In this document: positions 20,850-53,079 of the stretch, one piece after another
Position numbering within the stretch: the stretch's first letter is position 1
How the letters are laid out: each line of letters opens with the position of its first letter
Origin: Pagrus major
Lineage: Eukaryota; Chordata; Actinopteri; Spariformes; Sparidae
Length of the DNA: 64,000 nucleotides
Reading direction: 5' to 3'
NCBI RefSeq assembly: GCF_040436345.1
Contig: NC_133237.1
Location: forward strand, 24,991,749-25,055,748
The notes under the pieces: generated by a model
What the model was told of the DNA's origin: nothing
Databases searched by the model: none
What the model saw: the letters and a program-made list of their open reading frames with translations, nothing else
Made by a program: the position numbers and the translations under genes

Positions 20850-20855
20850 TTTATT
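20850..20855 (-). terminator. polyadenylation signal of gene L
   Basis: AATAAA on the minus strand, about 170 nt after the gene L stop codon. The same position is conserved in the other cluster genes. Confidence 0.7.
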
Positions 20856-21024
20856 CAGCAGGATAGTTTTCACTATCAAGCAATTTTACATTTTTCAACA
20901 TCAATTGGAGCTGTGACTAAAATCACTACATCTCAAAGGCTTCATGTTTACTCATCCAATTATTTCTTGCTTTGCAAAGCGCAAAGATATAGTTCAAACT
21001 ATATCTTCAAAATCAAGAACAGAC

Positions 21025-23389
21025 TCAGTCTTGATAGTATCGAATCAATTTATCTTCGGCCACTTCATCTTGGGATGTTCCCCCACTGTTTGCATAACAA
21101 GATAGAGACGGGGGAAAGAGAGAGGAATCAGTTAGTCAAATCAACAGAGGTCGATCAACAGAATCGTAAATGACGAATATTTTAATAATTGAATAATTTG
21201 CAATAATTTTTGGAGCAAAAACTGACAAAAATTCGCTGATTCTAGCTTCTGAAATGTGTCGACCTCCTTCTTTACCCTCTATTATATCACCGTGAATTTA
21301 AATGGGTTGGACAAAATAAGGTACTTGAAGACATCAACCTGGGATCTGGTTAATACTGATGGTTGCTGTGTTTGATAGGTTTGAGACATTTCAGTCTTTT
21401 TATTTCTTTTTTATTTGTCTGTTTGAAATCAACAGAAAATATTCAGTAATACTTACAATCTCCTGCAGTTACTCACTAAAGGGACAAAAAGCAGAAAATA
21501 AGATGAATAAACATTAGTATATCATTATCATATTTGAAAATCTTTGGATTTAAAACATTAATGATGCTCTCTTTACTTAGTTTTATGTTTATTATCTGAG
21601 GTGCCAGGACTAAATAACAGATTTGAGCTAAACACAGAACTAAGTGAAGTTGTATGTAGTAAGTTAGTACAGTCAAGTGTGATTTGTTGATCACAGACTA
21701 AAGGAGCCTGCTGTTTGTGTAAATCAGAGGTCAATTTGTTAACATCAACTCAGTATGTATGAAAGCTTGTGACTTACAGCATCGCTGCCTGTTCCTGCTA
21801 GCAGGCATTCTATACCAAGATAGAGAAGGGGGAAAGAGAGAGGAATCAGTTAGTCAAATTATCAGCAGAGGTCGATCAACAGAATCTTAAATGACAAATA
21901 TTCTAATAATTTAATAATTTTGCAATAATTTTTGGAGCATAAACTGACAAAAATTCACTGATTCCAGCTTCTGAAATGTGTCGGCTTGCTTCTTTACCCT
22001 CTATTATATCATCGTGAATTTATCATCAGCCAACTCAAGTTCGACCACCACATTAACCACATCACCAGGACCGCCTTCTTTCACCTCAAGAACATCACCC
22101 GTCTCCACCCCTCACTCACCTTCTCTGCTGCCGAAACCCTGATCCATGCTTTTATAACATCCAGACTAGATTACTGCAACAGCATCCTATACGGCTCATC
22201 ATCCAAAGTCCTCAATAAACTCCAATACATTCAGAACTCCGCTGCCCGCCTGCTCACCCACACCCGCTCCCGAGAACACATCACCCCTGTCCTCCAAAAA
22301 CTGCACTGGCTCCCCATCTCACACCGCATACAATTCAAAATCCTCCTGCTCACCTACAAATCACTTAACAACCTGGCCCCAACCTACCTCACAGACCTGC
22401 TCCACCACTACACCCCCTCCCGTGCCCTCCGATCCTCAGAGGGAAATCTCCTTGCCCTACCCCCTTGGACCAAGCACCGAATTTGGGGGGACAGAGCCTT
22501 CTCCGTTGCCGCCCCCACCCTCTGGACTTCACTCCCCAAACCCATCAGAGACTGTACAGACCCCCACACCTTCAAATCACTCCTAAAAACACACCTTTTT
22601 AAACTGGCTTTTAATCTGTAAATTAAATAAATATGTCTAATTTTCTGTTCTTTTATCCTCTTCTCATGTTATGTCTTTTTTTTGTGTGTGTATCTTAATT
22701 GTGTGTTACTCCACATTGTTCTATATTTTAATTGTGTTGATATTTTTATGTAAGCGTCTTTGAGCACCTGTAAAGGTGCGTTATAAAGAAAATGTATTAT
22801 TATTATTATTAAATTGGTTCGACAAAATAAGGTACTTGAAGACATCAACTTGGGATCTGGTTAATACTGATGCTTGCTATGTTTGATAGGTTTGAGGCAT
22901 TTCACAAAGTCTTTTTATTTCTTTTTTAATTGTCTGTTTGAAATCAACAGAAAATATTCAGCATTACTTACCTCAAGCATCTGGACACTAAAGGGACAAA
23001 AAGCGCAAAATAAGATAAATAAACATTAGTATAATATTATCACATTTGAAAATCTTTGCATTTAGAACATTAATGATGCTCTCTTTACTTAGTTTTATGT
23101 TTATTATCTGAGATGTCAGGACTAAATAACAGATTTTAGCTAAACACAGAACTAAATGAAGTTGTATGAAGTAAGTTAGTACAGTCAAGCGTGATTTGTT
23201 GATCACAGACTAAAGGAGCCTGCTGTTTGTGTAAATCAGAGGTCAATCTGTTAACATCAACTCAGTATGTATGAAAGTTTGTGACTTACTGCATCGTCGC
23301 GGAAAGACCGGACCTGTTCCCTGGCTCTCCCCGGGTTCAGCCATGAAGACGACCAGCGTCAACACCAGAAAGATCATAACACACTTCAT
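21025..23389 (-). CDS. gene L: piscidin-type signal peptide plus one C-x3-C hairpin (75 aa, five coding exons)
   Basis: Predicted secreted cationic defence peptide precursor. Exons: signal 23389-23290; A1 22987-22972; B 21809-21778; A2 21475-21457; last 21085-21025. All junctions are GT/AG with GTAAGT donors, and the total of 228 nt is in frame. The first 22 residues (MKC...MAEPGES) resemble piscidin/pleurocidin signal peptides. The mature part starts QGTGPVFPRR, then CMSRC, an 11-residue loop LRMPASRNRQR, then CLSNC and RRFGG. Nine arginines make it strongly cationic. The tail TSQDEVAEDKLIRYYQD is acidic, as in AMP propieces; RRFG could be an amidation site. Spacing C-x3-C-x11-C-x3-C fits an alpha-hairpinin-like fold. 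The first Cys of each motif ends one exon and the second lies in the next. A LINE fragment sits in the A1-B intron. Function is inferred; I do not know a described family with this architecture. Confidence 0.75.
22019..22812 (+). mobile_element. 5'-truncated L2-type LINE fragment in the gene L intron
   Basis: About 200 open codons encode the C-terminal part of a non-LTR reverse transcriptase, with motifs FHLKNITRL, ITSRLDYCNS, QNSAARLLT, HWLPISHRI, TYKSLN and SRALRSS. The frame stops at 22621 and is followed by a 3' tail with ttgagcacctgtaaaggtgc, cgttataaag and an ATT repeat. It interrupts cgtgaattt|aaatgggttgg, which is intact in the other units. It lies antisense to gene L, has no catalytic domain and cannot be autonomous. 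Confidence 0.85.
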
Positions 23390-23444
23390 CCTGAGGAACA
23401 AATCACAGTGGCCACATCCAGAATCATTCACTGCCTTCACTCAC

Positions 23445-23640
23445 CAGTGTCAAAGCTCATCACAACTCATCTAAAAGACTTTGCATTTATTAAAGTAACA
23501 TCAGGATTAAATTGACTTCTCACCTTTCCACAGATCGTTTGTCAGAACCAAAAAAAAACTGGTGTCACAGACAGCAAAGTGAGCACTGTGAGATCTAGAG
23601 GTGATGTGGTGAGCAGTCGTGAGTTACCCGTCTCTTTATA
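23445..23640 (-). promoter_or_regulatory. gene L core promoter and 5' UTR exons
   Basis: TATAAAG lies on the minus strand at 23634-23640, so transcription should start near 23606. A first non-coding exon ends GTGGAAAG|gtgaga at 23524. A possible 26-nt second exon at 23470-23445 follows cttttag and ends before gtgagtg; it starts with ATG and encodes only MSCDEL then stop. TTTTGCAAT at 23691-23699, upstream of the TATA box, fits a C/EBP consensus. The arrangement is conserved in genes M and R. Confidence 0.6.
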
Positions 23641-23820
23641 AGGCTGGAGATGGAGTAATCTTATCCAGTCATTCTGTATTTCTCAATGTGTTTTGCAATT
23701 CTCTGTTTTTCCATTGACTGTGATAATGATGAAAGATATGAATAGTGCAATTTCTTTTACAATTTCCCTAACGAGACCACGCCACATTTTAACATTAAGG
23801 TAGTTCATTTAAATTGGTAG

Positions 23821-24160
23821 AAGATTTTGGGAGGATAGGAAAAGGGGGGTCAGGGTTGTTGGATGAAGGAAGGGGGGGTTCGAGGTTGGTGGATGAAGGA
23901 AAGGAGGTGTGAGTAGCGCTGCAGATTGGCTGGACCGTCTAGGAACCAGGGAGGTTGAGACTCAGAATGGGGGTACGTCTCGATGGGCGCACGTCTTGGT
24001 CGGCGTGGCTTCATTGTCCCCCCTGTGGTTCCTGTGCTGGAATGGCCTGGGTCCCTGTTCTGGAGGTTCTTCTTGCCGTGGGATGGCGATGTCGAAGGCT
24101 GGGCTGTCGGTGATCCTGTGAGAGAGGATAGTGGAGAAGGAGAGGGTCTGGGGGGACAGG
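23821..24160. repeat. G-rich block upstream of gene L (copy 1 of 3)
   Basis: About 330 bp with ggaaaaggggggtcagggtt, ggttgagactcagaatgggg and tggcttcattgtcccccctg. Near-identical copies lie at 34965-35290 and 40955-41280, always 200-500 bp upstream of a cluster-gene TATA box. Open frames in it differ between copies and give no recognisable protein. It may be promoter-proximal sequence or the remnant of a mobile element. Confidence 0.6.
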
Positions 24161-24220
24161 GTTTTTTACAAGCACATGTAAATTACACCACAAAACAGAG
24201 ATGGTCTTTTGTAATGCAGC

Positions 24221-24935
24221 TTTATTCAGCAGGATAGTTTTCACTATCAAGCGATTTTACATTTTTCAACATCAATTGGAGCTGTGACTAAAATCACTAC
24301 ATCTCAAAGGCTGCATGTTTACTCATCCAGTTATTTCTTGCTTTGCAAAGCACAAAGATATAGCTCAAACTATATCTTCAAAATCAAGAACAGACTCAGT
24401 CTTGATAGTATCGCCTCAATTTATCGTCAGCCACTTCATCTACGGTTCTTTCAATCTTCAAATTATCAACAGAGGTCGATCAACAGAATCATAAATGACA
24501 AATATTTTAATAATTGCAATAATTTTTGGAGCAAAAACTGACAAAAATTCACTGATTCTAGCGTCTGAAATGTGTCGACTTGCTTCTTTACCTTCTATTA
24601 TGTCATCAAGAATTAAATGGGTTGGGCAAAATAAGGTACTTGAAGACATCAACTTGGGATCTGGTTAATACTGATGCTTGCTATGTTTGATAGGTTTGAG
24701 GCATTTCACAAAGTCTTTTTATTTCTTTTTTATTTGTCTGTTTGAAATCAACAGAAAATATTCAGTAATACTTACGGTTGAGCTTGAGGTCCTGAAGGGA
24801 CAAAAAGATGAAAATGAGATAAATAAACATTAGTATACTATTATAACATTCGCAAAAATATTTGCATTTAGAACATTAATGACGCTCTCTTTACTTAGTT
24901 TGGGTTTATTAGCTGAGATGCCAGGACAGAACATT
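24221..24935 (-). pseudogene. headless 3' cassette L (A-like exon, last exon and poly(A) signal)
   Basis: This is the 3' end of a fourth cluster gene. It has AATAAA at 24221-24226, a last exon at 24447-24396 reading TVDEVADDKLRRYYQD then TGA, and an A-like exon GACCTCAAGCTCAACC at 24791-24776 between tcccttcag and gtaagt. The exon phases still agree (CC|A). The A-like exon lacks the cysteine codon of all active A exons. Homology to the repeat unit ends near 24930 and no signal exon is found upstream, so it is probably a truncated copy, unless an upstream exon of another type exists. Confidence 0.65.
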
Positions 24936-26037
24936 TACTTTTTTTTTTGTTTGAGCCTCACATGTTTGTAATGACAATGCATGATGTTTCCTAAGAAAGG
25001 AAGTGATTCATCAGTTTTATCAGCAAAAGAAGAACAAGGTATTTCAAAACTCAGGTAAAAAAAATTCAACTTCCTCTTTGTGAAGTTGGAAGAAATATAC
25101 AGTATATAAGTTTATTGTTTTAGTCTTGTAACATAACAGTACATTCTGATATTAAATATAAGCTGGAGACCATCTTGCAATGGCAGGCCCGTAAACATGA
25201 TCACGTTCCGACCCATGACTACTCAGTGGTGATTACTACATTGTCACAGGAGTACTCGGTACTGTCATAACCCGGCTCTTAGGCCATGACAAATACGGGA
25301 TGGACACAATAGATGACTGAGAATTAAATTGTTTATTATGATGAAGCATATAACTGGAAATAAATAACTACAAATGTGGAGTGTGTGAGTCAGTATTATC
25401 AGTAATGCAAATGTGAATGTGTGAGCATTATGAGGTGTGCAGTGTTGTAGCGCGAAAACAAAACCAAAACCAAACAAAGCAAAGGCGTGTGGACGGCAGG
25501 CCCGTAAACATGTTCACGTTCTGACCCATGACTACTCAGTAGTGATTACTACATTGTCACAGGAGTACTCATCACTCACACGGTTGTGATGCTATCGTGT
25601 TGGCAATGTCTGCCCACAGACAGACAGAAAGACAGACAGACACAGACCACATTGTCCCTGTCCAGTGAAAACCACTAATATAAAAAAAATGGCAATTTTT
25701 CATGAGCCAAGAAAAACAGATATGTTTTCAGCATTTGTCAGATGATTCGATGGCTTTCCAAATCATTTGTTTGGCTTAAGAAATAGGAGAATTGTTTCTT
25801 CTCATAAAAGGAGCAGTTCCTTCATTTTTATCGAAAAATTCAAAAACACCAAATTTGCAATTAAGTGGTTTTCACTGGACGTTAATTAAAAGAGTAGACA
25901 CAGCATTGATTGAGAACTCCCCCTGGTTCTGTTCTAAACTTGTCAATTTATGTATTAATGACAAAAAAAAAACCCAAAATCAGTACTGTTATACCAGTAT
26001 GCATGCATAAAATAGCTTATTGAATCGAAATAATCAA

Positions 26038-26039
<2 letters not shown>

Positions 26040-26082
<43 letters not shown>

Positions 26083-26084
26083 TA
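26040..26084. repeat. (TA)n microsatellite
   Basis: Perfect TA run. The homologous place in unit R (43975-44027) also carries a TA tract, of different length. Confidence 0.9.
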
Positions 26085-26251
26085 GATTGGAACTGGGTTA
26101 CACTGACCCGCAACTTAAAATGTGAAAAAGTTAATCACCAACAATGACTTTTGCGGTTTTCTATTTCATAAATTCCACAACCTCACACTATTATAAAGTG
26201 GCCAGTTGTGTCATCTAATGTAATGGTAGCACTGCAGCAGCAGTAAACAGA

Positions 26252-26420
26252 TTTAAAGGTCTTATTTGTAAGAAAAGTAGATTTTTGAGTCTCATTCTCA
26301 ACTCGTCAAATACTGACGCTGGGATTGTAGGTCGAGTTGGCCGCCATCCCAAAGTGTCAGTATTTGATGAGTTGGGAATGAGACTCGAAATAAACTTTTC
26401 TTACAAATAGGACCTTTAAA
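26252..26420. mobile_element. hairpin MITE with long terminal inverted repeats
   Basis: The left arm runs from atttaaaggtcttatttgta to tcgtcaaatactgac. The right arm, gtcagtatttgatgagttgg to aataggacctttaaat, is its reverse complement over roughly 60 bp, around a core of about 40 bp. It has no coding capacity. Copies or fragments lie at 44147-44316, near 27590-27680, at 36765-36850 and at 63450-63560. Confidence 0.75.
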
Positions 26421-28254
26421 TATTATGATAAAACATATATTCATACTGCTAAAGCTCCTCCATCATTTGATGGTTCCAGCTTCTCAAATGTAGCTAATTT
26501 ACATATAATTTTTATGTATACTTATACTTTTAACATAAAACAAATACCCTCTGGACAGAAAATGTACTTTTTGTGTTTGAGCTTCACGTGTTTGTAATGA
26601 CAATGCTTGATGTTTCCTAAGAAAGGAAGTGATTTATCAGTTTTATCAGCAAAAGAAGAACAAACAAGGCATTTCATAACAAATGATGCTATCGTGTTGG
26701 CAAAGTCTGCCCACAGACGGACAGACAGACGGACAGACACACATGTTGAAAACAATTGAGGTGTATGGGCTGTCGTCCTCGAAAGGTGTCGGCGTGTAGT
26801 ATGTTGATAAAGAAATTCTGCGGAGGCAAGGCGGGGTGGATTGGATAGAACAATCTTTATTGAAACAGATTTCAAGCCAGCGTCCGAACCAGAGTGTGCA
26901 CTCCCTGGTATTCTCAAATCTTGGCAAAGTGATGCCCAAAATACTTTGCCTTCTGCTCTATCAGAACTCCTCTCAGACCCTCAGTCTTAGGAGATCAACC
27001 AAAATCACCCCCGTTTCCTGGTGTGTGTGTTTTTTTAGAGTCTCTTCGCTCAGGCCCGCCTATTTCTCTAATTGTTTACCTTTTTGGGGAACTGAGGCCC
27101 CTCTATCCTATTAGAAAAGGATGGGTCTGCATAACATCTCTCTCTCAAGGGAATATGTGTACATGGAGGTGTGTGCGTTACTATGTTGATGTTAGTCTCT
27201 GTATACTTAAATGGAAATGTGTACATTAAATCAACCCTGAGTCCTCTTCCTATCCTTAGATGGAAATGTATACATTGAACCTCTGAATTCCTCAGTCCTT
27301 GGTGTGGGCCTCTTCCTTTAGCTATTCTCTGAATCACACTACAGAACTAATGTGTTGTTATCCTGAACATGAGATCTCTACATTGTCTCCTTCCCAAATA
27401 TATTTAAAGGAAAACATTTGATCCTGTCCCATCCTGTCCTGTCACTCAGAGCTCAGGAGGTATAAGAAACACTCAGACACTACACAATAACTGCTGTACT
27501 TGAGCAGACAGGGATGACTGGAACTGGGTTACACTGACCTGCAACTTCAAATGTGAAACAATCATTCACCAACAATGACTTTTTGGGATTGTAGGTCGGG
27601 TTGGCCGCCATCCAAAAGTGTCAGTATTTGAAGAGTTGGGAATGAGATTAAAAAATCTACTTTACTTACAAATAGGACCTTTAATAATAATGATTAAAAA
27701 AATGAAATCTTACTACTTATACTCGTCCCAACATTTGATGCTTCCAGCATCTCAAATGTAGGGATTTGCTAATTTGTTTTCTCCTTGAATGTCTTTGGCT
27801 GTTGGACTGTTGGCCGTATCCAAAAGAGACATTTACACAATGATCATCTTGTTTCTTATGAAATTGTTATTTTGACTGTTTTGATGTTGTTTGATGTTGT
27901 TTCTGATGCTTTATAGACCAAATGATTCATCTATTGATGGAGGAAATGCCAGAATTTAATCATTTCCAAAGTGCTGCTTTACCAGAGACATAAGTACATT
28001 CAGAAACAGAAAGAAATAGGAAGAGTGTTTTTTTAATGAACTGATCACACCAAACACACACATTATTTAGATCTACCCAATATAAACAAATACTTCTGAC
28101 TTAATAAAAAACAATGTTCTTGATCATCATCACTGTTGGGACCGTCCACATGGTTCTGACATCAGATCGGCCCGCGTGTAGCTCAATGCTTAAATGCGGC
28201 CTCCTTGCACTAACAAAGCCTGGTAAACAAAGGAAAGTGCACCGACCCTGATGT

Positions 28255-28268
28255 CCAGTAGGTGGCGC
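28255..28268 (+). promoter_or_regulatory. CTCF-core-like site in unit L
   Basis: CCAGTAGGTGGCGC fits the published degenerate vertebrate CTCF core (CCASYAGRKGGCRS) at every position. The same 14-mer recurs in unit R at 45335-45348. The unit M copy has been removed by a deletion. Confidence 0.45.
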
Positions 28269-28738
28269 CTGCTTGTCACAGGCCCCCCAGGTTTGAAACT
28301 CCCACCTCCCATTGTCTGTGAGCGCACCTGAACGTGTCGGTTCCGCCGCCACCGGAGGAGATAAATACAGCTGCAGGATCATTTTCATCGCAGTCCCAGA
28401 TGTTACATGTTGCGGGAAGCATCAGCTTTCGTCTGCGCAACTGTGCTCAAAGGGAGCACCCAGACGATTGGATTAACCCAATTCTAGACACATGATTCAG
28501 CAAAATCATTATCATTTTTGAATTCGTATTCACGCCTGACTTCTCCAAGTCACGTTTCGGACATTTTTGTAGTTGAGCGAATGTGAGTTCCCAAATTCCT
28601 GTCCAGCCATTTTTGTAGTCCTTTCAACGGAACACTCCGTCCAAGAGATCATGACCGCCATTTTGGCTCTCCACCATCTTGTCACTTTGACACTGACCGC
28701 CATCTTGGCTCCTCTTTCTTTGTCTTTTCAACACACAC

Positions 28739-28792
<54 letters not shown>

Positions 28793-29005
28793 TGTGATGG
28801 ACAGTCTTTTGAGACTATTTTTGGTCTGGTTATTGGTCCCTGATTCCAGGGTGGTGCCCCATTTTTATTTCTTTAACTTTAATAATTATTATTAATAATT
28901 ATTAATTTATATTAACCACACAATTCCCAACATCACCAATAATATAACAAGCATATATTCACTTAAATAACACCACAAAACAGAGATGGTCTTTTGTAAT
29001 GCAGC

Positions 29006-29011
29006 TTTATT
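29006..29011 (-). terminator. polyadenylation signal of gene M
   Basis: AATAAA on the minus strand in the same context as in genes L and R. Confidence 0.7.
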
Positions 29012-29180
29012 CAGCAGGATAGTTTTCACTATCAAGCAATTTTACATTTTTCAACATCAATTGGAGCTGTGACTAAAATCACTACATCTCAAAGGCTTCA
29101 TGTTTACTCATCCAATTATTTCTTGCTTTGCAAAGCGCAAAGATATAGCTCAAACTATATCTTCAAAATCAAGAACAGAC

Positions 29181-29337
29181 TCAGTCTTGATAGTATCGCC
29201 TCAATTTATCTTCGGCCACTTCATCTTGGGATGTTCCCCCACTGTTTGCATAACAAGATAGAGACGGGGGAAAGAGAGAGGAATCAGTTAGTCAAATCAA
29301 CAGAGGTCGATCAACAGAATCGTAAATGACGAATATT

Positions 29338-29373
<36 letters not shown>

Positions 29374-32300
29374 TAAATAAAACAAAAATCTGACAGAAAT
29401 TCACTGATTCCAGCTTCTGAAATGTGTCCACTTGCTTCTTTACCCTCTATTATATCATCGTGAATTTAAATGGGTTGGACAAAATAAAGTACTTGAAGAC
29501 ATCAACTTGGGATCTGGTTAATACTGATGCTTGCTGTGTTTGATAGGTTTGAGGCATTTCACAAAGTCTTTTTATTTCTTTTTTATTTGTCTGTTTGAAA
29601 TCAACAGAAAATATTCAGTAATACTTACAATTTGTCGCAGTTACTCCCTAAAGGGACAAAAAGCAGAAAATAAGATAAATAAACATTAGAATATTATTAC
29701 ATTTGAAAATCTTTGCATTTTGAACATTAATGATGCTCTCTTTACTTAGTTTATGTTTATTATCTGAGGTGCCAGGACTAAATAACAGATTCTAGCTAAA
29801 AACAGAACTAAATGAAGTTGTATGTAGTAAGTTAGTACAGTCAAGTGTGATTTGTTGATCACAGACTAAAGGAGCCTGCTGTTTGTGTAAATCAGAGGTC
29901 AATCTGTTAACATCAACTCAGTATGTATGAAAGCTTGTGACTTACTGCATCGGTTCAGCAGATAGCTAAGTGGTATTCTATACCAAGTTAGAGAAGGGGG
30001 AAAGAGAGAGGAATCAGTTAGGCAAGGCAAGTTTATTTGTATAGCACAATTCAGACACAAGGCAACTCAAAGTGCTTTACAGGCGCATACTTACAGTAAA
30101 AGCATTAAAAATACATTAAAACAAAACATTAAAACAAGTTAAGAAATAGGAAAGTAGGCTCAAATAAAATAAAAGTTACAGTGCAGTTCAAAACCTTAAA
30201 AGCAATTAAAATACATTAAAACAAAACATTAAAACAAGTTATGAAATAGGAAAGTAGGCTAAAATAGAATAGGTTTCCTACGCCAGCTTCCTGGTTTTTG
30301 CTGGATTTACCTCCCATTTTTCTACTTGTCACTCGTCCCAGTGCACTTTATATTTATCCTTAAGACCCGGACGAATTCAGTTTGTTTACGCTACAAATTC
30401 TGAAAAAGCAGCCAACCAGCGGTGATAACCTTAAGAGACCCCTTGTCGCCACTTGGTTCCACTCGGCCCTGAGTTGGCCCCCAATCCAGAGGTAAAACAG
30501 CTTAATAGGAAAAAACACCCTTTCTTCCTATTAGCTCCGGCGTTCCCAGAACCCGGTATTACTCTGCCCTGAATTGGTCCGAGTCGCCCAACTATCACAA
30601 TGATCAACAGAAACCCAGCAAAAATTACTATTCACAATAATAGAAAACAAAAGTCACAGAGAAAATAAAAGTTACAGTGCAGTTCAAAGCCTTAAAATTG
30701 CTTCAGTGAAATTCAGTGGCAAACAGAAAGGTCTTACACTATATGAAAGCTGCAGTAAACAGTAAAGTTTTCAGCCCTGATTTAAATGAGCTGACAGTTT
30801 GTGCACACCTCAGGCATTCAGGGAGTTTGTTCCACTGGTGAGGACCATGGAAGCTAAATGCAGCTTCACCCTGCTTGGTTCTGACCCTGGGGACACTGAG
30901 TAGACCTGTCCCTGATGACCTGAGGGCTCTGGATGCTTCATATCCCACCAGCAGCTCTGACATGTATCTAGGTCCAAGACCATTTCGTGATTTGTAGACC
31001 AGTAACAGGATTTTAAACTCTATCCTTTGGCTCACAGGGAGACAGTGCAGGGATTTAAGGACAGGTGTGATATGGTCCATTTTCCTGCTGTTGGTCAGGA
31101 CTCTGGCAGCAGCATTCTGGATGAGCTGCAGCTGCTTGATTGATTTTTTACTGAGACCTGTAAAGACACCATTACAGTAATCTTACCTACTAAGAATAAA
31201 CGCATGAACTAGTTTTTCCATGTCTTGTTTAGACAGAAGTCCTTTAATTCGCGCAATGTTTTTGAGATGATAATAGGTTGATTTAGTGATAGTCTTTATG
31301 TGGCTGTTAAAATTCAGGTCTGAGTCCATAACTACACCCAGATTTCTGGCTTGGTCAGTGTTTTTTAGTGTAATTGAGTGAAGTTGGCCACTGACCTCAA
31401 GCCTTGCGTTTTTGGGACCAAAAACAATTACTTCTGTCTTTTCAGCATTGAGTTGAAGAAAGTTCTGGCCCATCCACTGAGTGACTTGTTGGATACATTC
31501 ACTCAGCGACTGTAATGGACTGTATTCATATGGTGACACTGTGATGTAGAGCTGTGTGTCATCAGCATATGAGTGGTAAAAGATGTTATGATACTCCATG
31601 ATCTGGGCCAGTGGGAGCATATAAATATTAAACAAAAGTGGCCCGAGAATAGAGCCTTAGGGGACTCCACATGTCATCTTTGTTCGCTCAGATTCACAAT
31701 TACCTAGCGACACAAAGAAGTCTCGATCTTCTAAATAAGATTTGAGCCAATTTAGCACTGTACCAGAAACTCCGACCCACTTCTCCAGTGTGTCGAGCAA
31801 CATGCTGTGATCAACTGTCTCGAATGCAGCACTAAGATCCAGTAATACCAACACTGAAGTTTTTGATGCATCAGTATTAAGGCGTATGTCATTTAACACC
31901 TTAATAAGTGCAGTTTCAGTGCTGTGGTGTGGTCAAAAACCAGACTGGAAAGCGTTGAAGAGATTGTTTTGGGTCAAGAAAGAGTGAATTTGTTGATAAA
32001 CAACTCTCTCAATGATCTTTGACAAAAATCCAAGTTTTGATATGGGTCTGTAGTTACTTAATACTGAAGCATCCAGATAAGGCTTTTTTAAAAGAGGTTT
32101 GATTACTGCAGTTTTCAAGGCCTTGGGAAATAGTCCTGATAAAAGAGAAGTATTTACTATCCTCAATATTTCTGGTGCAACACAATTAAAAACATTTTTC
32201 AACAAATTTGTAGGCAGCATATCAAGGCAGCAGGTCGTGGATTTTAAATTCTTAACTGTTACTGTCAGAGATGCATGGTCTACGAGTTGAAACTTTTCTA

Positions 32301-34534
32301 GATGTCTAGAAGATTGAGGAGGAACTGGTGACATAACCAAGTTTCCTGAGAAGGAGCCAGTCAAATTAGTCAAATTATCAACACAGGTTGATCAACAGAA
32401 TCTTAAATGAAAAATATTTCAATAATAATAATAGTAATAAATTAAATAAAACAAAAATCTGACAGAAATTCACTGATTCCAGCTCCTGAAATGTGTCGAC
32501 TTGCTTCTTTACCCTCTATTATATCATCGTGAATTTAAATGGGTTGGACAAAATAAGGTACTTGAAGACATCAACTTGGGATATGGTTAATACTGATGCT
32601 TGCTGTGTTTGATAGGTTTGAGGCATTTCACAAAGTCTTTTTATTTCTTTTTATTTGTCTGTTTGAAATCAACATACATGTTCAATCATACTTACCCCTT
32701 GCATTTGGCCTCTAAAGGGACAAAAAGCAGAAAATGAGATAAATTAACATTAGTATATTATCATCACATTTGAAAATATTTGCATTTAGAACATTAATGA
32801 TGCTCTCTTTACTTAGTTTTATGTTCATTATCTGAGGTGCCAGGACTAAATAACAGATTTTAGCTAAACACAGAACTAAGTGAAGTTGTATGTAGTAAGT
32901 TAGTACAGTCAAGTGTGATTTGTTGATCACAGACTAAAGGAGCCTGCTGTTTGTGTAAATCAGAGGTCAACCTGTTACCATCAACTCAGTATGTATGAAA
33001 GCTTGTGACTTACTGCATTGCTGCAGCTGAGCTTCTGGGCCCTCGCTATACCAAGATAGAGAAGGGGGAAAGAGAGAGGAATGAGTTAGTCAAATTATCA
33101 ACAGAGGTCGATCAACAGAATCTTAAATGACAAATATTCTAATAATTTAATAATTTTGCAATAATTTTTGGAGCAAAAACTGACAAAAATTCACTGATTC
33201 CAGCTTCTGAAATGTGTCCACTTGCTTCTTTACCCTCTATTATATCACCGTGAATTTAAATGGGTTGGACAAAATAAGGTACTTGAAGACATGAACTTGG
33301 GATCTGGTTAATACTGATGCTTGCTATGTTTGATAGGTTTGAGGCATTTCACAAAGTCTTTTTATTTCTTTTATTTGTCTGTTTGAAATCAACAGAAATA
33401 TTCAGTATTACTTACTTCAAGCATTCGGACCCTAAAGGGACAAAAAGCAGAAAATAAGATAAACATTAGTATATTATTATCATATTTGAAAATATTTGGA
33501 TTTAAGACATTAATGATGCTCTCTTTACTTAGTTTTATGTTTATTATCTGAGGTGCCAGGACTAAATAACAAATTCTAGCTAAACACAGAACTAAGTGAA
33601 GTTGTATGTAGTAAGTTAGTACAGTCAAGTGTGATTTGTTGATCACAGACTAAAGGAGCCTGCTGTTTGTGTAAATCAGAGGTCAATCTGTTAACATCAA
33701 CTCAGTAAGTATGAAAGCTTGTGACTTACAGCATTGATGCAGCTGTATGCCTTTGGTCCTTTTATACCAAGATAGAGAAGGGGGAAAGAGAGAGGAATCA
33801 GTTAGTCAAATTATCAACAGAGGTCGATCAACAGAATCTTAAATGACAATTATTCTAATAATTTAATAATTTTGTAATAATTTTTGGAGCAAAAACTGAC
33901 AAAAATTCACTGATTCCAGCTTCTGAAATGTGTCGACTTGCTTCTTTACCCTCTATTATATCACCATGAATTTAAATGGGTTGGACAAAATAAGGTACTT
34001 GAAGACATCAACTTGGAATCTGGTTAATACTGATGCTTGCTGTGTTTGATAGGTTTGAGGTTTTTCACAAAGTCTTTTTATTTCTTTTTTATTTGTCTGT
34101 TTAAAATCAACAGAAAATATTCATCATTACTTACCCCATGCATTTGTCCCCTAAAGGGACAAAAAGCGGAAAATGAGATAAATAAACATTAGTATATTAT
34201 TACATTTGAAAATCTTTGCATTTAGAACATTAATGATGCTCTCTTTACTTAGTTTTAGGTTTATTATCTGAGGTGCCAGGACTAAATAACAGGTTTTAGC
34301 TAAACACAGAACTAAGTGAAGTTGTATGTAGTAAGTTAGTACAGTCAAGTGTGATTTGTTGATCACAGACTAAAGGAGCCTGCTGTTTGTGTAAAACAGA
34401 GGTCAATCTGTTAACATCAACTCAGTATGTATGAAAGCTTGTGACTTACTGCATCGGGACAGACGCTGGCTCTCCCCGGGTTCAGCCATGAGGACGACCA
34501 GCGTCCACACCAGAAAGATCATAACACACTTCAT
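29181..34534 (-). CDS. gene M: piscidin-type signal plus two C-x3-C hairpins (101 aa, nine coding exons)
   Basis: Predicted secreted Cys-rich defence peptide. Exons: signal 34534-34450; A1 34150-34135; B1 33758-33730; A2 33431-33416; B2 33045-33014; A3 32711-32696; B3 29977-29946; A4 29647-29629; last 29241-29181. The total of 306 nt is one frame across eight GT/AG introns. The signal reads MKCVMIFLVWTLVVLMAEPG. Motifs in order: CRDKC, 10-residue loop, CWSEC, linker LNEGPEAQLQQ, CKAKC, loop KGIPLSYLLNR, CRSNC, then DKFGG and the tail TSQDEVAEDKLRRYYQD. B1 has lost the usual acceptor (tatag to tataa); the next AG, three bases on, gives a 29-nt exon still in frame. An L2-type LINE enlarges the A3-B3 intron. 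This is the longest complete product of the cluster. Function is inferred. Confidence 0.75.
30018..32370 (-). mobile_element. 5'-truncated L2-type LINE inside gene M
   Basis: Minus-strand frames in order carry reverse transcriptase landmarks: SNYRPISKLGFLSKIIE, VLLDLSAAFETVDH, a catalytic YADD in HSYADDTQLYITVSP, NLGVVMDSDL and a C-terminal SRALRSSGTG block. Stops and frameshifts separate them, so the copy is dead. The 3' end (30018 side) has the gtgctatacaaataaacttg tail. It splits the sequence tcagttag|tcaaattatcaac, intact elsewhere, with a possible short TTAG target duplication. It lies in the same orientation as gene M, in the intron between A3 and B3. Confidence 0.9.
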
Positions 34535-34589
34535 CCTGAGGAACAAATCACAGTGGCCACATCCAGAATCATTCACTGCCTTCACTCAC

Positions 34590-34784
34590 CAGTGTCAAAG
34601 CTCATCACAACTCATCTAAAAGACTTTGCATTTATTAAAGTAACATCAGGATTAAATTGACTTCTCACCTTTCCACAGATCGTTTGTCAGAACCAAAAAA
34701 AACTGGTGTCACAGACAGCAAAGTGAGCACTGTGAGATCTAGAGGTGATGTGGTGAGCAGTCGTGAGTTACCCGTCTCTTTATA
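34590..34784 (-). promoter_or_regulatory. gene M core promoter and 5' UTR exons
   Basis: TATAAAG lies on the minus strand at 34778-34784. The non-coding exon 1 donor is at 34669 (GTGGAAAG|gtgaga), and the possible 26-nt exon 34615-34590 starts with an ATG uORF (MSCDEL). A C/EBP-like TTTTGCAAT lies at 34835-34843. Confidence 0.6.
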
Positions 34785-34964
34785 AGGATGGAGATGGAGT
34801 AAACTCATCCAGTCATTCTGTATTTCTCAATGTGTTTTGCAATTTCCTCTTTTTTTCATTGACTGTGATGATGATGAAAGATATCAATAGTACAATTTCT
34901 TTTACAATTTCCCTAACGAGACCACGCAACATTTTAACATTAAGGTAGTTCATTTAAATTGGTA

Positions 34965-35290
34965 GAAGATTTTGGGAGGATAGGAAAAGGGGGGTCAGGG
35001 TTGTTGGATGAAGGAAGGGGGGTTCGAGGTTGTTGGATGAAGGAAAGGAGGTGTGAGTAGCGCTGCGGATTGGCTGGACCGTCTAGGAACCATGGAGGTT
35101 GAGACTCAGAATGGGGGTACGTCTCGATGGGCGCTCGTCTTGGTTGGCGTGGCTTCATTGTCCCCCCTGTGGTTCCTGTGCTGGAATGGCCTGGGTTCTG
35201 GAGGTTCTTCTTGCCGTGGGATGGCGATGATGAAGGCTGGGCTGTCAGTGATCCTGTGAGGGAGGATAGTGGAGAAGGAGAGGGCCTGAG
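34965..35290. repeat. G-rich block upstream of gene M (copy 2 of 3)
   Basis: Near-identical to 23821-24160 and 40955-41280, with small deletions such as ctgggttctggagg in place of ctgggtccctgttctgg. Confidence 0.6.
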
Positions 35291-37290
35291 GGGGAGGGTT
35301 GTAAGAACTTGAGATGAACGGGAGAGAAATGGTCAGGCTTGCATATATAGATTTTGCAAGCGATTGAATCAGGGTGACGTAGGTGGTTGGGTTAATGCAG
35401 CACAGGTGGTTAGGTTGACGAGACGCAGGTGGTTGGATTGACTGGGCCGGGCTGGCAGATCAGCGAGGAGGCGTGGCGTGGTCCAGTTCCTGAACCTTAG
35501 TTTTAATAACTCCATATCATAAAAATGTGTTGATATGTTGTTGAAAACACAAACAATTATACTGAAGGCATTAAATCTGCATTGTAATTATATTTTGGTA
35601 CATTTTTAAAATAGTTTTGTTATTTTCAATGACATTATCAGCATATAGATTAATTCGATATCATTTTTTATGTATACTTATATTTTTAATATAAAATAAA
35701 TACCCTCTGGACAGAAAATGTGCATGTTTTGTGTTTGACCTCACATGTTTCTAATGACAATGCTGATGTTTCCTAAGAAAGGAAGTGATTTATCACTTTT
35801 ATCAGCAACTGAAGAACAAACACGGTATTTCAGAACTCAAGGGGAACAAAAGTCAACTTCCTCTTTGTAAAGTTAAAAGAAATATACAGTATATAAGTTT
35901 ATTGTTAAGTCTTGTAACATAACAGTACATTCTGAAATTAAATATAAGCTAGAGACCATCTTGCAATGGCAGGCCCATAAACATGATCACGTTCCGACCC
36001 ATGACTACTCAGTGGTGATTACTACATTGTCACAGGAGTACTCGGTACTGTCATAACCCGGCTCTTAGGCCATGACAAATACGGGATGGACACAATAGAT
36101 GACTGAGAATTAAATTGTTTATTATGATGAAGCATATAACTGGAAATAAATAACTACAAATGTGGAGTGTGTGAGTCAGTATTATCAGTAATGCAAATGT
36201 GAATGTGTGAGCATTATGAGGTGTGCAGTGTTGTAGCGCGAAAACAAAACCAAAACCAAACAAAGCAAAGGCGTGTGGACGGTGGCTGGGTCCAGACCAA
36301 GTGAGAGAGAATGCAGAGCAGAGCTGGGCTTTTATCATGTGGGAGCGCTTAGCTCAGGTGCTCCAAACCTGGCTGGCTACTGCTACATCCTCCTCAACAC
36401 CTTCACAGAGAAACAGTACCACACAGTAACTTGTCCACAACACCCAAATATCAAACAGTTAGGCAGGGGCTGTCACAGCACTCGTGGCTTGGACCACATC
36501 CATCTTTGAACTCGGCCTCATTTTGTTCTCATCTACACACCTGCGAAGTTTTATGACTGCATCTAACACAGTTGTGATGCTATCGTGTTAGCAAAATCTG
36601 CCCACAGACAGACACATTGAAAACAACAACAGCTGTACTTGAGCAGATGGGGATGATTGGAACTGGGTTACACTGACCCGCAACTTAAAATGTGAAACAG
36701 TTAATCACCAACAATGACTTTTGCGGTTTTCTATTTCATAATTTACTTGCAGCAGCAGTAAAAAGATTTAAAGGTCTTATTTGTAAGAAAAGTAGATTTT
36801 TGAGTCTCATTCCAACTCATCAAATACTGACGCTGGGATTGTAGGTCGGGTTGAAAAGAAATTCTTACTTCTAAAGCTCCTCCTAACATTTGATGGTTCC
36901 AGCTTCTTGATTGTATGAATTAGATGATTTTTTTTTTTTACTCATTTTAAATTTTAATAGCTTGAATGTCTTTGTCGCTTTTGAAACGGCCAACACCACG
37001 AATGCCATTTACACAATGGTCATCTTAGTTCTTATGAAATTGTTATTTTGACTGTTTTTCTGATGCTTTATAGACCAAATGATTAATCTATTGATGGAGG
37101 ACATGCCAGACTTGAATCATTTCCAAAGTGCTGCTTTACCAGACACACAAGTACATTCAGAAACAGAAAGAAATAGGAAGAGTGTTCATTTAATGAACTG
37201 ATCACACCAACACACACATTATTTAGATCTACTTAATTTAAACATTTACCTCTGATTTAATGAAAAACAATGTTCTTGATCATCATCACC
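35291..37290. other. upstream spacer of unit M, no gene recognised
   Basis: 35291-35490 is unique to this unit. 35940-36280 repeats 25140-25490. 36280-36600 completes that dispersed element and holds only short frames. 36650-36860 carries a partial hairpin MITE. 36900-37260 matches unit L spacer near 27760-28115. Confidence 0.5.
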
Positions 37291-37357
37291 AATAATATAA
37301 CAAGCACGTTCACTTAAATAACACCACAAAACAGAGATGGTCTTTTGTAATGCAGCT

Positions 37358-37363
37358 TTATTC
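37358..37363 (-). terminator. polyadenylation signal of gene R
   Basis: AATAAA on the minus strand in the same context as in genes L and M. Confidence 0.7.
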
Positions 37364-37976
37364 AGCAGGATAGTTTTCACTATCAAGCAATTTTACATTT
37401 TTCAACATCAATTGGAGCTGTGACTAAAATCACTACATCTCAAAGGCTTCATGTTTACTCATCCAATTATTTCTTGCTTTGCAAAGCGCAAAGATATAGC
37501 TCAAACTATATCTTCAAAATCAAGAACAGACTCAGTCTTGATAGTATCGAATCAATTTATCTTCGGCCACTTCATCTTGGGATGTTCCCCCCCTGTTTGC
37601 ATAACAAGATAGAGAAGGTGAAACAAAAGAGAGGAATCAGTTAGTTAAATTATCAACACAGTTTGATCGACAGAATCTTAAATGACAAATATTTCAATAA
37701 TAATAATAATAATAATAAATTAAATAAAACAAAAATCTGACAGAAATCACTGATTCCAGCTCCTGAAATGTGTCCACTTGCTTCTTTACCCTCTATTATA
37801 TCATCGTGAATTTAAATGGGTTGGACAAAATAAAGTACTTGAAGACATCAACTTGGGATCTGGTTAATACTGATGCTTGCTGTGTTTGATAGGCTTGAGG
37901 CATTTCACAAAGTCTTTTTATTTCTTTTTTATTTGTCTGTTTGAAATCAACAGAAAATATTCAGTAATACTTACAA

Positions 37977-40522
37977 TCAGTTGCAGTTTCTCCCTAAAGG
38001 GACAAAAAGCAGAAAATGAGATAAATAAACATTAGTATATTATTATCATATTTGAAAATCTTTGCATTTAGAACATTAATGATGCTCTCTTTACTTAGTT
38101 TTATGTTTATTATCTGAGGTACCAGGACTAAATAACAGATTTTAGCTAAACACAGAACTAAGTGAAGTTGTATGTAGTAAGTTAGTACAGTCAAGTGTGA
38201 TTTGTTGATCACAGACTAAAGGAGCCTGCTGTTTGTGTAAATCAGAGGTCAATCTGTTAACATCAACTCAGTATGTATGAAAGCTTGTGACTTACAGCAT
38301 CGGTCCTGCTCAAAGCCTTTGGGCTTTCTATTCCAAGTTAGATGAAGGGGGAAAGAGAGAGGAATCAGTTAGTCAAATTATCAACAGAGGTCGATCAACA
38401 GAATCTTAAGTGACAAATATTCTAATAATTTAATAATTTTGTAATAATTTATGGAGCAAAAACTGACAAAAATTCACTGATTCCAGCTTCTGCAATGTGT
38501 CCACTTGCTTCTTTACCCTCTATTATATCACCGTGAATTTAAATGGGTTGGACAAAATAAGGTACTTGAAGACATCAACTTGGGATCTGGTTAATACTGA
38601 TGCTTGCTGTGTTTGATAGGTTTGAGGCATTTCACAAAGTCTTTTTATTTCTTTTTTATTTGTCTGTTTGAAATCAACAGAAAATATTCAGCATTACTTA
38701 CAACAAGCATCTGGACCCTAAAGGGACAAAAAGCAGAAAATGAGATAAATAAACATTAGTATATTATTATCACATTTGAAAATTTTTGCATTTAGAACAT
38801 TAATGATGCTCTCTTTACTTAGTTTTATGTTTATTATCTGAGATGCCAGGACTAAATAACAGGTTTTAGCTAAACACAGAACTAAGTGAAGTTGTATGTA
38901 GTAAGTTAGAACAGTCAAGTGTGATTTGTTGATCACAGACTAAAGGAGCCTGCTGTTTGTGTAAATCAGAGGTCAATCTGTTAACATCAACTCAGTATGT
39001 ATGAAAGCTTGTGACTTACTGCATTGCCGCCGCTGAGCTTCTTGGGCCTCTCTATACCAAGATAGAGAAGGGGGAAAGAGAGAGGAATCAGTTAGTCAAA
39101 ATATCAACAGAGGTCGATCAACAGAATCTTAAATGACAAATATTTTAATAGTTTTTGGAGCAAAAACTGACAGAAATTCACTGATTCCAGCTTCTGAAAT
39201 GTGTCGACCTCCTTCTTTACCCTCTATTATATCATCGTGAATTTAAATGGGTTGGACAAAATAAGGTACTTGAAGACATCAACTTGGGATCTGGTTAATA
39301 CTGATGATTGCTATGTTTGATAGGTTTGAGGCATTTCACAAAGTCTTTTTATTTCTTTTTTATTTGTCTGTTTGAAATCAACAGAAATATTCAGTAATAC
39401 TTACCGTCTGTTGCAGCCATCAACTAAAGGGACAAAAAGCAGAAAATAAGATAAACATTAGTATATTATTATCATATTTGAAAATCTTTGCATTTAGAAC
39501 ATTAATGATGCTCTCTTTACTTAGTTTTATGTTTATTATCTGAGGTGCCAGGACTAAATAACAGATTCTAGCTAAACACAGAACTAAATGAAGTTGTATG
39601 TAGTAAGTTACAGTCAAGTGTGATTTGTTGATCACAGACTAAAGGAGCCTGCTGTTTGTGTAAATCAGAGGTCAATCTGTTAACATCAACTCAGTATGTA
39701 TGAAAGCTTGTGACTCACAGCATCGGTCCTGCTCAAAGCCTGCGGGCTTTCTATACCAAGTTAGAGAAGGGGGAAAGAGAGAGGAATCAGTTAGTCAAAT
39801 TATCAACAGAGGTCGATCAACAGAATCTTAAATGACAAATATTCTAATAATTTAATAATTTTGTAATAATTTTTGGAGCAAAAACTGACAAAAATTCACT
39901 GATTCCAGCTCCTGAAATGTGTCGACTTGCTTCTTTACCCTCTATTATATCACCGTGAATTTAAATGGGTTGGACAAACTAAGGTAATTGAAGACATCAA
40001 CTTGGAAACTGGTTAATACTGATGGTTGCTGTGTTTGATAGGTTTGAGGCATTTCACAGTCTTTTTATTTCTTTTATTTGTCTGTTTGAAATCAACAGAT
40101 AATATTCAGCATTACTTACCTCAAGCAACTGAACTCTAAAAGGAAAAAAAGCAGAAAATGAGATAAATAAACATTAGTATATTATTATCACATTTGAAAA
40201 TCTTTGCATTTAGAACATTAATGATGCTCTCTTTACTTAGTTTTATGTTTATTATCTGAGGTGCCAGGACTAAATAACAGATTTGAGCTAAAAACAGAAC
40301 TAAGTGAAGTTGTATGTAGTAAGTTAGTACAGTCAAGTGTGATTTGTTGATCACAGACTAAAGGAGCCTGCTGTTTGTGTAAATCAGAGGTCAATCTGTT
40401 AACATCAACTCAGTATGTATGAAAGCTTGTGACTTACTGCATTGGGACGAACCCTGACTCTCACCGGGTTCAGCCATGAAGACGACCAGCGTCAACACCA
40501 GAAAGATCATAACACACTTCAT
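37977..40522 (-). CDS. gene R: piscidin-type signal plus two C-x3-C hairpins, early stop (82 aa)
   Basis: Predicted secreted Cys-rich defence peptide. Exons: signal 40522-40438; A1 40135-40120; B1 39750-39719; A2 39423-39405; B2 39051-39020; A3 38717-38702; B3 38327-38296; A4 37993-37975. Motifs: CKFSC, loop LRKPAGFEQDR, CFDGC, linker NRREAQEAQRRQ, CRSRC, loop LLKPKGFEQDR, CWRNC, Asn, stop. The two hairpins resemble each other more than they resemble the linker, so an A-B-A-B block of about 1.4 kb was itself duplicated. A4 ends TGC AAC TGA TT, so translation stops two codons after the last Cys and the acidic tail, still present in the last exon at 37592-37532, is lost. Because the stop is 5 nt before the final junction, nonsense-mediated decay is not expected. 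B1 uses GTGAGT rather than GTAAGT. Confidence 0.72.
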
Positions 40523-40577
40523 CCTGAGGAACAAATCACAGTGGCCACATCCAGAATCATTCACTGCCTTCACTCAC

Positions 40578-40772
40578 CAGTGTCAAAGCTCATCACAACT
40601 CATCTAAAAGACTTTGCATTTATTAAAGTAACATAAGGATTAAATTGACTTCTCACCTTTCCACAGCTTGTTTGTCAGAACCAAAAAAAACTGGTGTCAC
40701 AGACAGCAAAGTGAGCACTGTGAGATCTAGAGGTGATGTGGTGAGCAGTCGTGAGTTACCCGTCTCTTTATA
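40578..40772 (-). promoter_or_regulatory. gene R core promoter and 5' UTR exons
   Basis: TATAAAG lies on the minus strand at 40766-40772, exon 1 donor at 40657, possible 26-nt uORF exon 40603-40578 and C/EBP-like TTTTGCAAT at 40823-40831. Same layout as genes L and M. Confidence 0.6.
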
Positions 40773-41280: not shown

Positions 41281-41332
41281 TTTTACAAGCACATGTAAAT
41301 TACACCACAAAACAGAGACGGCCTTTTGCAGC

Positions 41333-42040
41333 TTTATTCAGCAGGATAGTTTTCACTATCAAGCGATTTTACATTTTTCAACATCAATTGGAGCTGTGAC
41401 TAAAATCACTACATCTCAAAGGCTGCATGTTTACTCATCCAGTTATTTCTTGCTTTGCAAAGCACAAAGATATAGCTCAAACTATATCTTCAAAATCAAG
41501 AACAGACTCCGTCTTGATAGTATCGCCTCAATTTATCGTCAGCCACTTCATCTACGGATCTTTCAATCTTCAAATTATCAACAGAGGTCGATCAACAGAA
41601 TCATAAATGACAAATATTTTAATAATTGCAATAATTTTTGGAGCAAAAACTGACAAAAATTCACTGATTCTAGCGTCTGAAATGTGTCGACTTGCTTCTT
41701 TACCTTCTATTATGTCATCAAGAATTAAATGGGTTGGGCAAAATAAGGTACTTGAAGACATCAACTTGGGATCTGGTTAATACTGATGCTTGCTATGTTT
41801 GACAGGTTTGAGGCATTTCACAAAGTCTTTTTATTTCTTTTTTATTTGTCTGTTTGAAATCAACAGAAAATATTCAGTAATACTTACGGTGGAGATTGAG
41901 GTCCTGAAGGGACAAAAAGATGAAAATGAGATAAATAAACATTAGTATACTATTATAACATTCGCAAAAATATTTGCATTTAGAACATTAATGACGCTCT
42001 CTTTACTTAGTTTGGGTTTATTAGCTGAGATGCCAGGACA
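41333..42040 (-). pseudogene. headless 3' cassette R
   Basis: Counterpart of the cassette at 24221-24935. It has AATAAA at 41333-41338, a last exon starting at 41559 (SVDEVADDKLRRYYQD) and an A-like exon GACCTCAATCTCCACC at 41903-41888 with intact cag/gtaagt borders and no cysteine codon. The usual TGA has become GGA, extending the frame by GVCS before the next TGA. No signal exon is seen upstream. Confidence 0.65.
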
Positions 42041-48257: not shown

Positions 48258-48610
48258 CTCTTTTAAACTGTCCTAACCTGACAGCTTCTTTGCTCACATG
48301 TTAAACTGTCCTAACCTGACAGCTTCTTTGCTCACGTTAAACTGTCCTAACCTGACAGCTTCTTTACTCACATGTTAAACTGTCCTAACCTGACAGCTTC
48401 TTTGCTCACATGTTAAACTGTCCTAACCTGACAGCTTCTTTACTCACATGTTAAACTGTCCTAACCTGACAGCCTTTTTACTCAAATGTTAAACTGTCCT
48501 AACCTGACAGCTTCTTTACTCACATGTTAAACTGTCCTAACCTTACAGCTTCTTTGCTCACATGTTAAACTGTCCTAATCTTACAGCTTCTTTGCTCACA
48601 TGTTAAACCA
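48258..48610. repeat. 38-bp tandem repeat, about nine copies
   Basis: The unit starts ttaaactgtcctaacctgac and continues agcttctttgctcacatg. Copies differ by single substitutions and one by a short deletion. It is a minisatellite; there are no unique spacers. Confidence 0.95.
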
Positions 48611-51080: not shown

Positions 51081-51529
51081 ATGCTGGGGACCCTCTGCAC
51101 TCTCATCACTGCTCTAACATGTAAGATATTCTTCTCTCTCCTTTTACAGCCCATATTTTCACACAGAAACCTTTGACTCATGCATTTTTCTGTGTATGTT
51201 GACAGATGTTGATGCAGCCAAAGTGGTGACCCAGACGCCTGCTGTCCACACAGTTTCTACAGGACAACAGGTTGTTCTCGGCTGCAACATTGGGACACAT
51301 GAATATCAAGATGTCAGTTGGTATAAACAGGTTCCTGGTGAAGCTCCTCAGTATGTTCTGAGGGGTTACAGGTCACCTAAAGAATTTGGTACAGGATTCT
51401 CCTCAGACCAATTTGACTTTAAACGCTCATCAGACATAAATTACCAGTTAATCATTAAGAGGACAGAGACAGGAGACTCTGCTCAGTATTACTGTGCAAC
51501 ATGGGACAGCTCTGCCAATGAGTGGGTAT
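51081..51529 (+). CDS. V2: second-family light-chain V segment adjoining J1
   Basis: Leader 51081-51120 is identical to that of the other family, but the V exon (51206-51529) starts YVDAAKVVTQTPAVHTVSTG. The Ig cysteines are in LGCNIG and YYCATWD, the tryptophan in SWYKQVPGEAPQ, and FR3 reads GTGFSSDQF and YQLIIKRTETGDSAQ. The frame is open to the RSS. Its nonamer ends only 245 bp before the J1 nonamer. V5 is its counterpart in the second cluster. Confidence 0.88.
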
Positions 51530-51557
51530 CACAGTGATTTACACTGTGACAAAAACC
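51530..51557 (+). other. V2 recombination signal (12-RSS)
   Basis: CACAGTG, 12-bp spacer atttacactgtg, ACAAAAACC. Confidence 0.95.
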
Positions 51558-52981: not shown

Positions 52982-53079
52982 AGGAGCACAACGACCATTT
53001 CAAATCTGCTTCTTTACTGTTTGTGCTGTTTGCTCATTACAAGGTTCACATGTTAGAAAAGATGTGTCTGCATGCTTGT

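Follow-up and report, generated by a model that had tools for sequence, protein, structure and literature searches.

The analysed window, a 64,000-nucleotide stretch of the Pagrus major genome (C23:24991749-25055748; genome of 785.9 Mb in 25 contigs), contains three genes on the minus strand, g1 (40522-37975), g2 (34534-29181) and g3 (23389-21025). The original prediction of spliced frames that stay open over 5, 9 and 8 coding exons was confirmed when the genes were derived again exon by exon with consensus splice borders (eight coding exons in g1, nine in g2, five in g3). The products comprise 82 (g1), 101 (g2) and 75 (g3) amino acids. A recount in these products also returned the predicted C-x3-C arrays, with four motifs each in g1 and g2, two in g3, and spacers of 10-12 residues; the gaps between the mature cysteines are 3-11-3-12-3-11-3 (g1), 3-10-3-11-3-11-3 (g2) and 3-11-3 (g3). 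The piscidin-like signal peptide that had been proposed was found in all three leaders (MKCVMIFLV(L/W)TLVV(F/L)MAEPGES), which matched PF08107 over residues 1-22 with 36-37 bits, above the Pfam cut-off of 22 bits. The predicted ends of the cluster, 20850 and 40772, coincide by eye with the poly-A signal of g3 (20855-20850) and the TATA-like box of g1 (40772-40767).

All exons described here were placed by their splice borders on the minus strand. In g1, the non-coding exon 1 ends near 40657, and exon 2 (40438..40522) encodes the signal peptide, recognized by PF08107, and QGSSQC. It is followed by alternating exons of two kinds, designated A and B: the micro-exon A1 (40120..40135, 16 nt), a putative copy of piscidin exon 3; B1 (39719..39750, 32 nt), which according to intron comparison is a putative chimera of the start of exon 4 and the end of exon 2; A2 (39405..39423, 19 nt); B2 (39020..39051), which is the likely inter-hairpin linker and is flanked on both sides by RR; A3 (38702..38717, 16 nt); B3 (38296..38327, 32 nt); and A4 (37975..37993, 19 nt). 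This eighth coding exon holds an in-frame TGA after CWRNCN, directly after the last cysteine, and the terminal exon (37532..37592; poly-A signal 37362-37357) is untranslated owing to this stop.

The g2 gene consists of exon 2 (34450..34534; signal peptide and QRLSRC), A1 (34135..34150, 16 nt), B1 (33730..33758, 29 nt), A2 (33416..33431, 16 nt), B2 (33014..33045), which is of the linker type and differs from g1 B2 at 5 of 32 nt, A3 (32696..32711, 16 nt), B3 (29946..29977), which lies past a 2.7-kb intron, A4 (29629..29647, 19 nt) and a terminal exon (29181..29241; poly-A signal 29011-29006) encoding the acidic tail GGTSQDEVAEDKLRRYYQD and a stop. The shorter g3 gene comprises exon 2 (23290..23389; signal peptide and QGTGPVFPRRC), A1 (22972..22987, 16 nt), B1 (21778..21809, 32 nt), A2 (21457..21475, 19 nt) and a terminal exon (21025..21085), which also extends the product past its last cysteine into an acidic tail. 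Reverse-transcriptase-like frames were seen by eye in the long g2 intron (32391-30739, minus strand) and in a g3 intron (22621-21962, plus strand); they are probably LINE fragments, and the two frames compared with Pfam gave no match. Additionally, intron comparison identified two 5'-truncated piscidin-gene remnants on the minus strand (41296..42039 and 24179..24927), each with an exon-3-like stretch without a cysteine codon.

Beside the cluster, at a distance of about 10 kb, immunoglobulin V segments occupy positions 51118-62626 in tandem repeats of about 6.5 kb, with Pfam V-set domains at 51118-51537 and 57652-58080. Recombination signals with 12-bp spacers lie on the plus strand at 51530, 54402, 56040, 58073, 60953 and 62599, and signals with 23-bp spacers on the opposite strand at 51803-51841 and 58346-58384; we take this layout to be that of a kappa-type light chain. 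A 38-bp minisatellite with 9.2 copies is located at 48263-48608.

The exon pattern of the three genes exceeds chance, because stop codons concentrate in the other frames (5-7 in the two alternative frames per spliced product, 1-2 in the called frame), because exon lengths are pure modulo 3 (all exons 2 and A leave a remainder of 1, all B exons of 2), and because the invariance of TGC is absent in shuffled sequences. This triplet is the sole invariant one in the ten A exons of the window, and an invariant triplet in A or B occurred in 0 of 20,000 shuffles. Intron lengths fall into two classes modulo 3 before A and three after A (two long introns left out). Exon lengths change in multiples of three, as in g2 B1, the acceptor of which is displaced by three bases while the frame of the 29-nt exon is retained. 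Promoter and splice sites are intact, and the stretch from promoter to start codon, including exon 1 and intron 1, shows only 7-8 differences in 338 aligned bases among g1-g3.

In the whole genome, at least 44 matches to PF08107 were detected. By a hand tally that gives lower bounds for the large families, six of them lie on C23 (25.01-25.10 Mb), two groups on C22 (22 matches between 13.88 and 14.08 Mb, 11 between 12.23 and 12.29 Mb), two matches on C15, one on C18 and two on C21. The three additional C23 genes, g4-g6 (starts 25103395, 25090141 and 25073929), were modelled by similarity to the splice flanks of the window genes, with mismatches allowed, and not ab initio; they possess open frames and each encodes C-x3-C-x11-C-x3-C. 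All six cluster genes therefore share a leader above the PF08107 cut-off (residues 1-22 only), the pattern C-x3-C-x10/11-C-x3-C and an even number of mature cysteines, four or eight, with one twin C-x3-C unit in g3-g6 and two in g1 and g2. Apart from the A2 micro-exon, which is for the most part different (16 vs 19 nt), the genes g4 and g5 (L013/L012 and L011) share about 99% of their sequence: each intron differs at 1-7 sites, whereas in A2 7 of 14 aligned bases are changed and 7 further columns are gaps, and the difference stops exactly at the splice borders or close to them. This suggests a cassette-like exchange of the exon.

Among the six genes, the mean pairwise divergence was 0.448 for the 16 A exons and 0.439 for the ten B exons, compared to 0.037 for the introns before A (n=16), 0.076 for those after A (14 of 16, two with insertions left out), 0.042 for the signal (66 nt) and 0.040 for exon 4. 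Nevertheless, TGC was retained in 16/16 A exons (columns 8-10, with no other stretch of A invariant), in 10/10 B exons and in 6/6 ends of exon 2. Within the window, eight disjoint exon pairs, picked by hand with close ones first and without g2 B1, differed at 49 of 182 sites, and the introns before A were 2-6% apart. A dN/dS-type count (pooled pS 0.29-0.33, pN 0.47) is unreliable because it compares different exon classes, and intron divergence was therefore taken as the yardstick. Positive selection has been reported on ordinary piscidins (PMC2830478). Here, old exon classes kept in introns that were homogenized by gene conversion may partly explain the contrast, since the introns of g4 and g5 are nearly identical while A2 differs, and the exon divergence is for this reason no clean rate of positive selection. 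Whichever cause holds, exon variety is retained and the cysteines are fixed.

The A exons that close a hairpin are 19 nt long in 4/5 cases in the window and those that open one are 16 nt long in 5/5 (Fisher one-sided p 0.024); in the six genes, 19 nt occur in 5/8 closing and 0/8 opening A exons. Because of this difference, and because B2 of g1 is close to B2 of g2, these two genes seem to consist of a pair of hairpin units with a linker between them, in agreement with the earlier proposal that some members carry two hairpins. The linker spacing of 11-12 residues would also fit the hairpin motif, and spacing alone thus leaves the cysteine pairing in g1 and g2 unfixed.

Published piscidin genes have four exons with a tiny exon 3 of 19-49 bp and the prodomain in exon 4, apart from three exons in tilapia and five in grouper (PMC7369796). 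The window genes show piscidin borders and phases, but exon 3 is present two or four times with B exons of 29-32 nt in between. We regard the A exons as probable copies of exon 3. The introns after each of the seven B exons of the window are 94-98% identical to the intron following exon 2 of g1, and the intron upstream of B resembles the one preceding the last exon; hence the B exons are most probably chimeras of the start of exon 4 and the end of exon 2. Such chimeras are expected from a tandem duplication with break points in exons 2 and 4, and the array would have arisen from a unit consisting of the end of exon 2, exon 3 and the start of exon 4.

A linear relative, L005 (C22:12243480), has the same phases as the C-x3-C genes, with an exon 2 of 136 nt, an exon 3 of 25 nt and an exon 4 of 79 nt. 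Its product contains the linear stretch RRRGSRFGRIAKGLYRGVRAGID and a single cysteine, encoded in exon 4. Over aligned bases, L005 agrees with the C-x3-C genes at 80% and 83% of positions in the two introns and at 79% in exon 4; the first of these introns is shorter in L005 (206 vs about 302 bp). Furthermore, stretches of two Sparus aurata protein models with apparent read-through (P0003, P0006) match introns of the window genes. Shared introns, phases and the tiny exon 3, together with the published gene structures, bear out the proposed piscidin origin. Relative to L005, exon 2 of the cluster genes has only a short stretch ending in a cysteine where the linear gene codes for a helix; exon 3 contributes a second cysteine, so that a C-x3-C lies across the junction of exons 2 and 3; and repetition of the unit multiplies whole C-x3-C motifs in frame.

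Other piscidin-leader genes of the same genome carry different cysteine patterns. On C22, 16 gene starts were found in the 140 kb examined, and nine open single-unit and two open array products were modelled. The nine single-unit products (C22:13937281-14007247, L021-L028) are closely similar, glycine-rich and of the APQTGGC-x6-C type, with a GC splice donor; one of them has cysteine beyond this pattern. The two arrays (C22:13903324 and 13919250; L018, L019) encode proline-rich C-x6-C loops such as CVHRPPPC, with three and four A exons, and point to the same exon-array mechanism as in the window with another cysteine scaffold. At least three scaffolds were thus recognized on the piscidin chassis: twin C-x3-C in the six genes of C23 and, on C22, arrays of proline-rich C-x6-C loops (two modelled) and glycine-rich C-x6-C (nine modelled). 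In the piscidin-leader genes L006, L007 and L008, exon 2 bears cysteines in further arrangements (CRSEP...CHIIVC...C; CRSMPMPCRGSFC). Two further genes, the products of which start with FFGWLIKGAIHG and FIGLLISGAISG after the signal, are near S. aurata piscidins 1 and 2 (PMC12255565).

Alpha-hairpinins are defined by the motif C-x3-C-xn-C-x3-C and a helix-loop-helix fold (PMC11591084). The pattern C-x3-C-x(4-20)-C-x3-C fits all eight hairpin units of the fish genes, with spacers of 10-11 residues. Proline and glycine are confined to the first six residues in 8/8 spacers within hairpins (the linkers in g1 and g2, one each, left out), which was matched by 46 of 200,000 shuffles, and they occur inside only 1 of 16 C-x3-C motifs. 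This placement suits a helix-turn-helix, and each twin C-x3-C would be expected to fold in this way with disulfides C1-C4 and C2-C3, the bonds of the helix-loop-helix of oxidized small Tims (PMC3759932). Single-sequence queries against solved structures returned nothing relevant. A profile built from the five hairpins in the window gave three sequences at E up to 10 (0.2-9.4) and an eight-hairpin profile only four (0.75-3.9), all non-significant. The four were kappa-conotoxin vil14a, a cone-snail venom peptide, the vicilin Pis v 3, a Veronica trypsin inhibitor and TIM8; the printed alignment of each contains two C-x3-C pairs, and the matches are driven by the shared cysteine spacing.

The protein database searches that had been proposed found the PF08107 leader and no motif-bearing relative of whole g3 or the mature part of g2. 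With g3, 39 proteins were obtained, all with precomputed PF08107. The mature pattern was absent from all 39, and C-x3-C was missing in 38; the exception, P0004, has one in an apparent read-through tail. For residues 22-101 of g2, no candidate shared three 5-residue words in this search, which requires several shared exact words and may let fast-changing relatives escape. Likewise, no cysteine-hairpin piscidin was found in the sections retrieved from the open-licence PMC literature; those of PMC6203393 and PMC7168153 use the term helical hairpin and name no such piscidin. Within these databases and texts, the statement that no fish family of this architecture has been described holds.

The cluster genes share with the piscidin/pleurocidin family (PF08107) the signal peptide, the layout of exons 1 and 2, the tiny exon 3, intron sequence, the tail SQDEV...YYQD and clustering. 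They differ in the one to three repetitions of exon 3 and chimeric exons and in the cysteines: piscidins are usually described as linear and cysteine-free (e.g. PMC8468504), although one review that states this elsewhere calls them cysteine-rich (PMC10215159), and in place of a linear, amphipathic helix free of cysteine all six cluster genes encode four or eight mature cysteines in C-x3-C pairs. The nearest database proteins are S. aurata piscidins (P0001, E 6.2e-7), which lack the mature C-x3-C pattern. One of them, P0005, has C-x6-C and stays a lead for a one-pair intermediate; its residues 18-60 matched only P0005 itself in the database.

With plant alpha-hairpinins, the genes share the motif, cysteines that are at times the only conserved residues, and precursors with several modules (PMC11591084). 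Gene, leader and host kingdom differ, the fish fold is a prediction, and common descent is contradicted by the piscidin leader, introns and tail and by the lack of a significant sequence match. Of the original prediction that a piscidin gene was converted into an alpha-hairpinin-like family, the piscidin origin and the twin C-x3-C arrays thus stand, whereas the family name does not hold as a statement of descent. The twin CX3C small Tims also have two C-x3-C pairs, and Tim8 is among the weak profile matches, but these are mitochondrial chaperones without a secretory leader; an intermembrane-space protein of the Tim8/9/10/13 type was rejected, as the cluster genes have such a leader and no Tim family was among the Pfam matches. 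For vil14a, which has two C-x3-C pairs and headed the weak matches of both profiles (E 0.2 and 0.75), no shared ancestry is evident. A likeness to the toadfish anti-inflammatory peptide TnP (PMC5325231) was discarded, as shuffles with fixed cysteines scored as high in 146 (g3), 330 (g2) and 1742 (g1) of 2000 cases; other venom links were dropped as well. An identity of g2 as Vanabin-2 was rejected (11 bits, E 0.4-0.53, Pfam cut-off 25).

It is reasonably probable, judging from gene structure and sequence, that these are functional, lineage-specific genes which arose from a four-exon piscidin gene, gained their array by duplication of a unit and encode secreted, disulfide-stapled helical-hairpin host-defence peptides. 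The peptides would likely work like plant alpha-hairpinins without descent from them. A role in host defence is suggested because the leader, the cationic hairpins, the fixed cysteines and the variable surface fit; the net charge of the five window hairpins is +2 to +9, that of the tails -2 (g2) and -3 (g3). After secretion through the piscidin leader, removal of the acidic tail would set free the cationic hairpins, g1 being perhaps cleaved at RR in the linker, and the hairpins might act on microbes as mucosal or granule-stored peptides, while exposed residues diversify on a fixed cysteine frame. Against this it must be considered that the acidic tail of g1 is lost to the stop codon, that exons of 16-19 nt need efficient micro-exon splicing and that metal binding or links between chains would be an alternative role for the C-x3-C pairs.

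Secreted hairpins might also have a main task other than the killing of microbes: they might inhibit parasite or pathogen proteases, or target ion channels or immune cells, in the manner of some plant and venom hairpins with twin C-x3-C. We consider this unlikely, though it deserves attention: a trypsin inhibitor and kappa-conotoxin are among the weak structural matches and some plant alpha-hairpinins inhibit trypsin (PMC11591084), but the piscidin leader is otherwise found on antimicrobial peptides (PMC2830478, PMC7369796), the hairpins are cationic, and the eight-hairpin alignment has no invariant or nearly invariant column besides the cysteines, so that no reactive site is evident. It is quite improbable that the genes are decaying, unexpressed duplicates with frames open through recency rather than use. 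About 44% exon divergence among six genes that all retain their frames and the codons of the motif cysteines, length changes in threes including the shifted g2 B1 acceptor, and intact promoter and splice sites speak against decay, even if the stop in g1 A4, the two truncated remnants (42039-41296 and 24927-24179), the insertions in g2 and g3 introns and the low intron divergence (2-6% before A), which may indicate young copies, would suit it. Slightly less probable still is metal binding by the C-x3-C pairs, after the manner of vanabins and of reduced small Tims, which bind zinc (PMC3759932), or their pairing between molecules; the Vanabin-2 match of g2 that could be cited for it is far under the cut-off, the secretory leader implies an oxidizing route, and the number of mature cysteines is even in 6/6 genes.

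If host-defence hairpins are indeed encoded here, the change from piscidin to cysteine-framed hairpin by duplication of exons of 16-19 nt would be an unusually clear and traceable birth of a new scaffold within a known gene, the steps of which are preserved in near-identical introns. The hairpins would also serve as small templates that may be stable to proteases, and the genes show that others like them may escape gene predictors because their exons are tiny. On a broader scale, we tentatively propose, at somewhat less than even confidence, that the piscidin gene serves as a scaffold factory in Pagrus major, in which leader, promoter, introns and tail are conserved while phase-matched pairs of exon 3 and chimeric exon are added, swapped or skipped without breaking the frame. 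At least three cysteine scaffolds would have come from it, and the twin C-x3-C hairpins might be, as far as is known, the first vertebrate case of defence peptides built as alpha-hairpinin-type helical hairpins.
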